DNA of 52,384 nt from Candidatus Cloacimonadota bacterium (GTDB lineage Bacteria > Cloacimonadota > Cloacimonadia > Cloacimonadales > PWNZ01): contig PWNZ01000006.1 in the NCBI GenBank assembly GCA_003564135.1, forward strand, positions 1-52,384, read 5' to 3'. Below are positions 17,888-50,987 of the stretch, in pieces. Made by a program: the position numbers and the translations under genes. The notes under the pieces were generated by a model. The model was not told where the DNA came from and searched no databases. It saw only the letters and a list, made by a program, of their open reading frames with translations. The stretch's first letter is position 1. Each line of letters starts with the position of its first letter.

Positions 17888-17980
17888 TTCGCATCATCCG
17901 ATACAACCGAATCGACCGCCGGGATAAGCACAAAACCTACATTGAAACAATTTAGTTTCACCTTTAAAATAAGGGAATAC

Positions 17981-40621: not shown

Positions 40622-40648
40622 CTAAAAACTATTAATAAAAAAAGTCAA

Positions 40649-40681
40649 GATTTTAGGGCACCTAGAAGGTGCCCTAAAATC
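40649..40681 (+). terminator. Strong hairpin after the LysM gene
   Basis: A perfect 14-bp stem (40649-40662 with 40668-40681) with a 5-base TAGAA loop. An A-rich run precedes it and no T-run follows on the plus strand, so it may attenuate rather than end transcription into the HD-domain gene 55 bases on. Confidence 0.55.
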
Positions 40682-40736
40682 AGAAGGTGAACCTTATAAT
40701 AATATTCCCGTTAGAGTAACCTTACGGAGACACCAC

Positions 40737-42845
40737 CTGAAACGTTCTCACTTATTATCCATCATAATCTTCAGCATAGCATTCACATTCCTGTTCTATC
40801 TGTTTACCACTTCGGATCCGGGATTTGTTAGGCCGCAATATGAGGTAGGCCAAATCGCTGAAACCGATATTATTGCCCCTTTTTCCTTCGAAGTGCCTAA
40901 AAGTCCCGATACTATACAGCAGGAAAAAGAAAGAATAGCGGCTAATGTTGAACCTGTTTACAAAATCTCAGATACAATAAAGTTTAATACCATTAGCAGA
41001 ATTGACTCTTTTATCGAACACTTGGCGGCCATAGAACGTCAACCGGATCCGGAAACAGCTCGACGTTCATTACAGGACAGAGGTTATAATCTCAGCTTGG
41101 AAAGCATAGAAAAACTGTCAAAAAGCAGAGCGAGAATTGAACTACACAACTATTTGATTAATATCTTTAACAGTAATCTTTCAGTAGGAGTTTATGACGA
41201 AAGCTTTATTGAAGAGCGAGCTTTATTGTCAACAAACGATTCATACCGAGAAATACCGTTGCGAAACCTATTTAGTATCGATGAAAGCAGAGAAAGGGTA
41301 GTTAATAACATCAATAATCCTGAGCTTCAGCCTATTGTCGAGGAAACCGTACACCATTTTCTGACCCCGAACATTGTCATCGACACGGAAAAGACTGAAC
41401 TGCTAATCCAAGAAGCATACAATACAATCGTTCCAGTATTAACTGAGGTTTTAGAAAACGAAGAAATCATCCGTAGGAATCGCAGAATTACGGAAATCGA
41501 CCTAAAAAAGCTGGAAGCAATGTATAGCCTAATGGAAGATGAAGAATCTACAGAAGATATTTTTGGATTGATCTGGTATCCGATAATCGGGTACTTCCTA
41601 CTTTCTTTTGTCCTAACATTAGCTGGCTACTTCTCATTTGTTATCATAATCAGGAATCGCTTTGATAAACTTATCCACGTATTGACCTACTTGAGCTTGC
41701 TCTTATTATTAATTTTGATGACTTACGGTTTAGCCATGTTCGACACCGTTCCCGACATAATTTTACCTTTCGCTCTACCGGTTATTCTCTTTGCTTTGTT
41801 GTTTAATCCTCCCAGCGGATTTATCGTCAATTGTATAGGGCTGTTTTTGGTTCTACCCTTTCTGCATTGGAATATTTCAGCATTATCGGTGCTTTTTCTT
41901 GCTACTATGTTGCTGCTTATCATTATGACCAGACTGAAAGATAATCACGATTTTCTTGTTCTCTCTATCTCCTGTTTAGTTTCTTTTTTCGTAGTAGCAA
42001 TAACAGTTTCATTATTAATACAGAATGTCCATGTGGTTGACTTTCTTTTCTACGGAGCACTTTCTTGCATTATCTCGATGGCTGGAATCATTATTATATC
42101 TCCGGTGCTGGAAAAAAATCTCAACCTAACAAATAAAATCATCCTTTTACAGCTCCAAGACAATAATAACCCTTTATTAAAGAGGATGTCAGTCGAAGCT
42201 CCAGGCACTTATAATCACTCCATTATGGTTGGTAACTTAGCAGAAAGCGCTGCCGTTGCCATAGGAGCAAATGCATTATTGGCAAAGGTCGGAGGCCTTT
42301 ATCACGATATAGGAAAGCTGACCGAACCGGAAATGTTTGTAGAAAATAATACTAAAGCCCCGGAACTGCATAACCAGAAAGACAGCTATGACAGCACTGT
42401 CACCATTAGAAACCATGTCTTGTCGGGAATTACTCTCGCAAAAAAATATAAGCTTCCGCAACAGGTAATAGACATTATTAGACAGCATCACGGAATCAGT
42501 AAGGTATCTTTTTTCTATCAGAAAGCCAAAAAAACAGATCCCGATGTCGATGAGAAGAAATTTCGATATTTCGGACCGAAACCGAGAACCAAAGAAGCTG
42601 TTCTGGTTATGATAGCTGATATTGTAGAGTCAACAGCCAAATCAATTAGTGATCAACATGACGAAGAATCTTTAAAAAAAATCATCGACGACACAATCGA
42701 GAAAATCATAAACGATAAACAGCTCTCAGAGGCACCAATAACCTTGAAAGAACTGGAAACTATTAAATCTTTCATGCTGCCGATAATCGTCGGCATTTAT
42801 CAAAAAAGAGTAGAATATCCGAAAGAAAAAAGCAATTCAATATGA
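40737..42845 (+). CDS. pgpH: 7TM-HD domain protein, PgpH-type cyclic-di-AMP phosphodiesterase
   Basis: A membrane HD-domain protein. The family degrades c-di-AMP in studied Firmicutes. The order is an N-terminal anchor helix, an extracytoplasmic domain (about 30-270), about seven membrane helices (about 275-450) and a cytoplasmic HD domain with GTYNHSIMVGNLAE, YHDIGK (about 521-526), RQHHGIS and ADIVEST. The first standard start is GTG 40893, but conserved-looking sequence stays open upstream with no ATG, GTG or TTG. I place the start at CTG 40737, which follows GGAG (40726-40729) by 7 bases and gives KRSHLLSIIIFSIAF, a typical anchor. Length is then 702 residues. It overlaps ybeY by 4 bases. 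Confidence 0.85.
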   Translation: MKRSHLLSIIIFSIAFTFLFYLFTTSDPGFVRPQYEVGQIAETDIIAPFSFEVPKSPDTIQQEKERIAANVEPVYKISDTIKFNTISRIDSFIEHLAAIERQPDPETARRSLQDRGYNLSLESIEKLSKSRARIELHNYLINIFNSNLSVGVYDESFIEERALLSTNDSYREIPLRNLFSIDESRERVVNNINNPELQPIVEETVHHFLTPNIVIDTEKTELLIQEAYNTIVPVLTEVLENEEIIRRNRRITEIDLKKLEAMYSLMEDEESTEDIFGLIWYPIIGYFLLSFVLTLAGYFSFVIIIRNRFDKLIHVLTYLSLLLLLILMTYGLAMFDTVPDIILPFALPVILFALLFNPPSGFIVNCIGLFLVLPFLHWNISALSVLFLATMLLLIIMTRLKDNHDFLVLSISCLVSFFVVAITVSLLIQNVHVVDFLFYGALSCIISMAGIIIISPVLEKNLNLTNKIILLQLQDNNNPLLKRMSVEAPGTYNHSIMVGNLAESAAVAIGANALLAKVGGLYHDIGKLTEPEMFVENNTKAPELHNQKDSYDSTVTIRNHVLSGITLAKKYKLPQQVIDIIRQHHGISKVSFFYQKAKKTDPDVDEKKFRYFGPKPRTKEAVLVMIADIVESTAKSISDQHDEESLKKIIDDTIEKIINDKQLSEAPITLKELETIKSFMLPIIVGIYQKRVEYPKEKSNSI

Positions 42846-43288
42846 CAGAAGAATTGATAGAAACCCTCAATTGGACAGCTGCCGGTATAAGAAAATTCGA
42901 GCCTAATTTAAGTTCGAAAGCAGTTGACATCTATTTTGTTAACAGCGATGAAATAAAACAGCTTAATCGCCGTTTTTTTGGCCGAGATAAGACAACCGAC
43001 ATTCTTTCGTTCACCAGCGATTTCTTAGAATCCAACATAATCGGCGAACTAGTGATAAATAAGGATATCGTCGCTAAAAAAGAAAACCGCTATGAGGGGA
43101 CAACCATAAGACCTTTGCAAGTTTCCAAGAAACCTCCAAAACCAACTGATCCTGAACTAAAACTGGTTAAACTCTTTATCCATGGGACATTGCATTTGTT
43201 AGGATATAACCACTTAGAGACTAAAGCCCATCATGCAATGTTAAAAAAAGAAAAGAAAGTTCTTGACTGGTTATTAGGTAATCTTTAG
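42842..43288 (+). CDS. ybeY: Endoribonuclease YbeY
   Basis: A zinc-dependent RNase for 16S rRNA maturation and ribosome quality control. The 148-residue protein has the metal-binding HGTLHLLGYNH motif (the family usually has D rather than N before the last His) and the typical NRRFFGRDKTTDILSFT strand. Its ATG overlaps the stop of the HD-domain gene (ATGA), so the pair is translationally coupled, a common gene order in bacteria. Confidence 0.93.
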   Translation: MTEELIETLNWTAAGIRKFEPNLSSKAVDIYFVNSDEIKQLNRRFFGRDKTTDILSFTSDFLESNIIGELVINKDIVAKKENRYEGTTIRPLQVSKKPPKPTDPELKLVKLFIHGTLHLLGYNHLETKAHHAMLKKEKKVLDWLLGNL

Positions 43289-48673: not shown

Positions 48674-49153
48674 TTATCCTCTGAATCCAGTTTGTCTGCA
48701 TGCTTCATATAAAACAACAGCTACACTGTTTGAAAGGTTTAATGATCTAATATCCTCAGACATTGGTATCTTGATTACTCGGTCGCTGTATCTGTCAAGC
48801 AAAAACGGGGGAAGACCTCGTGATTCAGGACCAAAGATAAAGGTATCTCCCTGCTTATATTGGAGATCGTAGTATAGTTTTTGTCCTTTAGTTGAGCAAA
48901 GAAAGAAACGGCTGTCTTTATATTCATCCATACATTCATCCAAGCTATCATAAAGCTTGAGATTCAAATGATGCCAGTAATCTAAACCTGCTCTTTGTAC
49001 TTGTTTTTCTGTTATCAAAAACCGCATTGGCTTAATGATGTGTAGTGTGCTGTTACAACCGACACATAGCCTACCAATGTTTCCGGTATTAGCTGGAATC
49101 TCCGGCTGATAAAGAACTATATTGAATTTTAGTCTATCATAAGTTCTGTCCAT
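48674..49153 (-). CDS. trmL: tRNA (cytidine(34)-2'-O)-methyltransferase
   Basis: A small SPOUT methyltransferase of 159 residues that methylates the wobble ribose of certain leucine tRNAs. It has the opening NIVLYQPEIPANTGNIGRLC, the FGPESRGLP SAM-binding knot motif and IPMSEDIRSLNLSNSVAVVLYE. The ATG at 49153 lies inside the last codons of the ThiB-like gene (25-base overlap), with no clear ribosome binding site, so coupling to that gene is likely. Confidence 0.93.
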   Translation of the reverse strand: MDRTYDRLKFNIVLYQPEIPANTGNIGRLCVGCNSTLHIIKPMRFLITEKQVQRAGLDYWHHLNLKLYDSLDECMDEYKDSRFFLCSTKGQKLYYDLQYKQGDTFIFGPESRGLPPFLLDRYSDRVIKIPMSEDIRSLNLSNSVAVVLYEACRQTGFRG

Positions 49154-50169
49154 CTGTTAACCCATCTATCAACTCGGCTAGCTCTAAAAATATTATTTAT
49201 ACGGTCATTTATTATGTTTTCAGGTACCTTCAGGTTTTTGAAAGAATCAGGCAGTTCGACTCTTTCAGACACAGGATACAACCATCTGGTTTTGGCAACA
49301 TGCTGCTGAACTTCTATACTCAACATAAAATCGACGAACTGCTTCGCCAGAGAAAGACTATTGCTATCTTTTATAACCCCGACGCCTTCTGCATACATAT
49401 ATGTTCCTTCTCCGGGTATGAAATAGCTATAACGGTAGGTGTCTTTATTTTCGATCAAATATGCAACAGTGGTTGTATAGCCTAATAAAAAAGGCGCTTC
49501 ATCAGAGATAAACATGCTGTATGACTGATCCCAAGTGGCAGAAATAAAGAATATATTATTTTTTATACTGCGCCAGAAGTGGCCGTAACCCAACTCTCCG
49601 AACATAGAAACAGACCATAACAAGAAAGCTAATCCATTAGTTGAAGTACGTGGATCGGAAATCAAAAAATGTCTGTTCCATGATCCATCTTGTAATTTAC
49701 CAAAGTTTTCGGGTGGGTTCTGGATTCTCTCTGTATTATACAAGAAAGCCAAATAGCCATAGGTATATGGTATAAAGTTGTAGCTGGTATCGAAATGCAG
49801 ATCTTCATCAATACTATCCATCCCCGACGGTCTATAGGGTTGGGTAATATTATTGTGTAAAAGCCATACAATATTTCCATTATCAACCCCTAAAACCACA
49901 TCGGCTAGGGGATCATCTTTTTCCTCTATCAATTGTGCTAATAAGTCTTCGGGTTCAGGGAACGCTTTCAACCCAACAACACACCTATACTCTTCTTCAA
50001 ATGCGGGAATAATCATAGTCGCTAGTGGTAGAATTTCCGAGTGAGTATAAATCACCAGATCATAATCAATCTCTAAACTTGAACTATCGTTAGAGCAACT
50101 ACTGATAAACATCAAAGCAACCATGACTACCATAACTCTTATTAAGCATTTACTAAACAATGATCTCAT
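49129..50169 (-). CDS. thiB: Thiamine-type ABC transporter substrate-binding lipoprotein
   Basis: A ThiB/TbpA-like periplasmic binding protein, about 346 residues from ATG 50169, which follows AAAAGG by 9 bases; ATG 50175 or 50187 are alternatives. A lipoprotein signal (VMVVMVALMFISSCSND) leads to the mature body. Family markers are DLVIYTHSEILP, ADVVLGVDNGN, YGYLAFLYNTERIQNPP, SDPRTSTNGLAFLLW, GYTTTVAYLIE and TRWLYPV. Thiamine or its phosphates are the expected ligand. No thiP or thiQ is next to it; the upstream gene is an unrelated MlaE permease. Confidence 0.85.
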   Translation of the reverse strand: MRSLFSKCLIRVMVVMVALMFISSCSNDSSSLEIDYDLVIYTHSEILPLATMIIPAFEEEYRCVVGLKAFPEPEDLLAQLIEEKDDPLADVVLGVDNGNIVWLLHNNITQPYRPSGMDSIDEDLHFDTSYNFIPYTYGYLAFLYNTERIQNPPENFGKLQDGSWNRHFLISDPRTSTNGLAFLLWSVSMFGELGYGHFWRSIKNNIFFISATWDQSYSMFISDEAPFLLGYTTTVAYLIENKDTYRYSYFIPGEGTYMYAEGVGVIKDSNSLSLAKQFVDFMLSIEVQQHVAKTRWLYPVSERVELPDSFKNLKVPENIINDRINNIFRASRVDRWVNRWTELMID

Positions 50170-50192
50170 CTTCATAATCCTTTTCATGTTTT

Positions 50193-50987
50193 TTAAGTAC
50201 CAAAAAGAACTGCTGCAACTATAAAGTCCATCAGTAATATAAGAATACACGAATACACAACCGTCAATGTAGTTGCTTTACCGACACCTTCGGCACCACC
50301 TTCAGTTCGGTTACCAATAAAGCAAGCTATTGAGCTAATAACAAATCCAAAGAAAACTGCTTTTGCCAAGCCACCCCACAAATCCATCGGTTCGAAATAG
50401 TTCTTCATATTGTTAAAAAACAGATGATGATTGATATCATAACGATAATTAACTATAAAGAAAGCAGACACTATGCTTATCAGGTTAGCGTATATTGTTA
50501 GCATAGGTAGTACAATGATACCGGAAACCATGCGGGGTAGAAATAGGTATTCATAGCTATCAGTACCGACACTTGTCAGCGCATCAATCTGTTCAGTCAC
50601 CTTCATAGTGCCTATCTCAGCTGTTACTGCTGCTCCAATTTTACCTGACAAGACCAGTCCGGTAAGTACCGGCGCTAGCTCTATCATAGTAGATTTAGCT
50701 ACCATAACGCTAATAAAACTATTAGGTATCAGGCCCCTTGTTTGGTAAGAAGCTTGAACTGCCGTAACAAGTCCTGCGAATGCTGAAGTGACAGTTATTA
50801 GCAGTAGCGAATTATAGCCCATACCTCTGAGTTGAACTAATAACTCGAACCGTCTTTTAACTAACTTCGGTAGGGTTAAAAACGTTCTAACAACGAAGAT
50901 GACATAACTACCTAGCCATGAAAGAACGGCCAGCAAAGAAACTGTTATATAATCCCTACCTTCTTTTCTTTCTATCCTTGTTGACAT
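50193..50987 (-). CDS. MlaE family ABC transporter permease
   Basis: The permease of a lipid-transport ABC system linked to outer-membrane lipid asymmetry. The 264-residue protein has the family signatures TVTSAFAGLVTAVQA, ELAPVLTGLVLSGKIGAA, AEIGTMKVTEQIDAL and the C-terminal GGAEGVGKATT near several membrane helices. The usual MlaF ATPase and MCE-domain MlaD partners are not next to it here. It follows dnaB by 19 bases on the minus strand. This fits a diderm organism. Confidence 0.92.
   Translation of the reverse strand: MSTRIERKEGRDYITVSLLAVLSWLGSYVIFVVRTFLTLPKLVKRRFELLVQLRGMGYNSLLLITVTSAFAGLVTAVQASYQTRGLIPNSFISVMVAKSTMIELAPVLTGLVLSGKIGAAVTAEIGTMKVTEQIDALTSVGTDSYEYLFLPRMVSGIIVLPMLTIYANLISIVSAFFIVNYRYDINHHLFFNNMKNYFEPMDLWGGLAKAVFFGFVISSIACFIGNRTEGGAEGVGKATTLTVVYSCILILLMDFIVAAVLFGT

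Follow-up and report, generated by a model that had tools for sequence, protein, structure and literature searches.

The question raised by this locus is where translation starts in a gene whose frame contains no canonical start codon ahead of a conserved N-terminal region. In the window, i.e., the whole stretch of 52,384 nucleotides that was analysed, the open frame of CTG 40737 extends on the plus strand from a TAA at 40623–40625 to a stop codon at 42843–42845. As a first-pass annotation of this DNA had stated, the frame was found to contain no ATG, GTG or TTG between this TAA and GTG 40893. Counted from the CTG, the gene (40737–42845) comprises 702 codons plus the stop. We conclude with considerable confidence that translation of a PgpH-type (7TMR-HD) phosphodiesterase gene truly starts at CTG 40737 (40737–40739), a codon most likely derived from UUG by one T-to-C transition. 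This placement of the start draws on the open frame, the missing canonical start, a Shine-Dalgarno (SD) element and a start codon that aligns without gaps with those of relatives.

Pfam comparison of the product showed matches above the cut-off to the 7TMR-HDED extracytoplasmic domain (PF07697; 113 bits, residues 36–263) and to the HD domain (PF01966; 64.8 bits, residues 491–631), while the 7TM region (PF07698) scored 25.2 bits (residues 280–464), just below the cut-off of 29.4. The match to the HDIG domain was 84.6 bits, and the sole PDB match was the HD domain of Listeria PgpH (4s1b; E = 5.4e-54). Judged by these matches, the product is a PgpH-type 7TMR-HD protein, an identity that the first-pass annotation had already proposed. 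Most likely it would be a membrane enzyme that degrades the signal molecule c-di-AMP; this putative phosphodiesterase role rests on what we take to be established knowledge of PgpH. The end of pgpH overlaps by 4 bases with ybeY (42842–43288, plus strand), which is followed by a CNNM/CBS gene, and a LysM gene and a perfect 15-bp hairpin (40649–40681) precede pgpH. This hairpin, situated in the gap between the LysM gene and pgpH, is terminator-like on the minus strand, as a T-run follows it on that strand only; the LysM gene, which ends ahead of the hairpin, lies on the plus strand. Elsewhere in the window (49129–50987, minus strand), two adjacent genes at 49129–50250 and 50193–50987 were seen to overlap in different frames, an overlap that other genomes of the order have kept.

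A GGAG element was found at 40726–40729, and the earlier statement that it is well placed for CTG 40737 was confirmed by a spacing of 7 nt. An SD match was defined as a 4-base piece of AAGGAGG at 5–9 nt spacing, which about 5.4% of window positions show by chance. By this definition, only two of the 13 in-frame CTG, ATT, ATC and ATA codons within 40626–40890 had a match, namely CTG 40737 and ATC 40854. The coding signal was shown to extend upstream of GTG 40893: within the first 241 kb sampled, the pgpH ORF was among the top three outliers for upstream coding signal, and it was the strongest such outlier in the genome with several homologues behind it. A structured leader or riboswitch was rejected, as no Rfam match was obtained and the leader (40701–40780) folded no better than shuffled sequences (z −0.31). 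A sigma-70 promoter scan from the hairpin to the CTG found none; a TATAAT at 40695–40700 was spotted by eye only.

Of 118 genomes searched within the order and class of this bacterium, 107 gave a match, and 88 start regions (this gene and 87 others from that order and class) were compared. In 63 of the 88 the start coincides with the codon that aligns to CTG 40737, and the remainder start within 13 codons upstream or 2 codons downstream of it; a canonical start at or near the aligned codon was present in all except this gene. In the two nearest relatives, G006 and G014 of family f6 (49% and 47% identical), the position of CTG AAA in this gene is occupied by TTG AAA. Within f8, the largest related family, the 30 pgpH starts comprised 21 TTG, 3 GTG and 6 ATG, and within family f10 all 40 were ATG. 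Hence, when the orthologues were checked for ATG, as had been suggested, the aligned codon proved to be a start codon and ATG was found in f10, whereas TTG is present in the nearest orthologues. In this gene and four relatives, no gap interrupts the alignment of the first 83 codons, and eight residues upstream of GTG 40893 are invariant (G38, I40, A41, D44, A47, P48, F49, and F51), which places the start at 40737 and supports the earlier choice of the CTG. Since relatives have TTG at this very codon, the simplest history is a single T-to-C change, and the CTG most likely arose from TTG in this way. No other genome examined had CTG at pgpH, and the CTG is known from one assembly of one species.

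It is unlikely, though this is the most probable of the alternatives, that the organism has TTG at 40737 and only the assembly reads CTG, a consensus error that would leave the start site unchanged and remove the oddity. Such an error would fit a draft genome of 282 contigs (91.6% complete) and the TTG of the nearest relatives. True switches are also rare, as 1 of 2,468 ancestral UUG starts, about 4 in 10,000, was found changed to CUG among closely related genomes (PMC5622118). Those switches likewise have UUG in the relatives and CUG in the gene concerned; they were counted among close genomes, whereas the nearest known relative here is just 49% identical, and this long branch speaks against an error, as does the intact remainder of the 702-codon frame. 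Moreover, the per-base rate of consensus errors in assemblies of this kind is usually lower than the switch rate.

That translation begins elsewhere, at GTG 40893, ATT 40704, ATC 40854 or another codon, is highly improbable. The first canonical start codon that the frame offers is GTG 40893 (40893–40895; codon 53 from the CTG), which a standard caller would therefore choose, and ATC 40854 has GAGG 8 nt upstream. However, the orthologues begin at the codon aligned with 40737, ATC 40854 lies downstream of the anchor helix, and a start at 40854 or 40893 would lose the anchor and conserved residues. In the case of GTG 40893, the 52 N-terminal codons (40737–40892) encoding the anchor helix and the conserved GQIAETDIIAPFSF stretch would be lost; the loss of the anchor had been pointed out before, together with the lack of a ribosome binding site near the GTG, where indeed no SD match was found. 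ATT 40704, previously regarded as a weaker choice, showed no SD match at 5–9 nt spacing and no support among orthologues. All three codons were therefore rejected as starts on orthology and SD position. Least probable of all is that pgpH is being lost, with a broken start and a protein hardly or never made. A start codon weaker than that of any relative in the comparison speaks for this; against it, the 702 codons are intact, the matches to 7TMR-HDED, HD, HDIG, and the PgpH HD domain are good, the SD element is present and ybeY overlaps the end of the gene.

CUG starts are rare in bacteria, yet known. Over the 296 genes predicted in 559 kb of the genome, approximately 89% of starts were ATG, 6% TTG and 5% GTG; these percentages are rough, as the survey used a simple home-made codon model and an SD score. 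Apart from pgpH, no gene in these 559 kb had a credible CTG start, and general use of CTG starts in the genome was rejected; the remaining hits (L112, L148, and L107) resemble weak ORFs, repeats or fragments of genes. When all ORFs were compared with one another, most of the output, pgpH and tgt excepted, consisted of artefacts from antisense or overlapping frames. In f8 genomes, TTG makes up 14–18% of predicted starts and is over-represented at pgpH (L008–L034; 21/30, binomial p ~1e-9, uncorrected for relatedness). The weak pgpH start seems to have been kept in the f6 and f8 lineages, and this retention suggests selection for low pgpH expression in both.

With CTG 40737 as the start, an ancestral UUG would have become CUG by one T-to-C transition, the 30S subunit would dock on GGAG, and initiator fMet-tRNA would read CUG with a first-position mismatch to give fMet-Lys-Arg-Ser-His. 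Initiation would probably be weak and subject to IF3 discrimination, and the enzyme would for that reason be made at a low level. Near relatives already have a weak start at this codon (mostly UUG), so that CUG would go one step beyond theirs and not be a new device; the change is one of a single base in a real start, not a new mechanism. As the CTG is not conserved, the change from UUG to CUG is possibly no more than drift between weak starts. The SD element of pgpH is short (GGAG), which counts against a CUG start. In E. coli, CUG gave initiation complexes of lower stability than AUG, GUG or UUG did, and structures with a variant initiator tRNA showed a poor first-position pair at CUG (PMC11497404); given this lower stability, the yield could be very low.

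Other non-canonical starts were found in the order. The infC gene of this genome is intact and has no canonical start; it starts with ATA after AAGGAGG (L225, G000:C132). Most relatives read (L246–L274) have ATA or ATT after a full AAGGAGG or AGGAGG, and a few f8 genomes have TTG (L250, L256, and L258). A non-canonical start after a strong SD is known for infC elsewhere. In most families of the order, the conserved start of tgt (queuine tRNA-ribosyltransferase; Pfam TGT, E = 5e-168) is not ATG, GTG or TTG, the aligned codon being ATT, ATC or ATA. This was the case in 26 of the 46 genes read, mostly with a strong SD (L195–L224, L275–L289), e.g., AGGAGGTAGATT-ATT in G025 (L219) and AAGGAGTAGTTT-ATT in G018 (L207); a few of the 26 may instead start at a TTG (codon 6) or at an ATG or GTG located upstream. 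In this genome tgt has ATT-ATC after AAAGGAG (L226, G000:C164; minus strand, near 17950), and in G006 it has an AUU start (L123, minus strand, 14086). Nearly all tgt genes of f10 have ATG, TTG or GTG at or adjoining the same codon, and one has ATC. No relevant paper turned up in a literature search for non-canonical starts of tgt, and a conserved AUU/AUC/AUA start of tgt is apparently undescribed. It would be a rather remote conjecture that infC, tgt and the pgpH of this species form a translational group in the order governed by initiation fidelity through IF3, a group by which c-di-AMP degradation and queuosine modification would both be coupled to ribosome state.

The pgpH gene offers a clean, naturally occurring candidate for a bacterial CUG start, with the ancestral UUG readable from relatives, and gene callers that use only ATG, GTG and TTG would trim 52 residues, including the membrane anchor, from its product. 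The AUU/AUC/AUA start of tgt is the better lead and may be more interesting than the CTG of pgpH.

Compared with Listeria PgpH (Lmo1466; PDB 4s1b/4s1c), the N-terminal anchor, 7TMR-HDED and HD domain are common to both, and the 7TM region, scoring below its cut-off here, is probably shared as well; the CTG start is a difference, and activity and substrate are predicted here. IF3-repressed non-canonical starts have been described for infC and for Streptomyces sigR (GTC; PMC5472188), and ccpN and cvfC1 of S. aureus have conserved, IF3-repressed non-canonical starts with extended SDs (PMC13009471). Like these four, pgpH combines an SD with a start outside ATG, GTG and TTG, for which lower translation is expected. 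By analogy with infC and sigR, its yield should be low and IF3-sensitive, although IF3 control of pgpH is something that we only infer. Unlike ccpN and cvfC1, pgpH has a short SD, and its relatives have TTG, ATG or GTG, whereas the non-canonical starts of infC and tgt in this lineage are conserved among relatives. In this respect, it is the tgt starts of the order that resemble the conserved non-canonical starts of S. aureus (PMC13009471).
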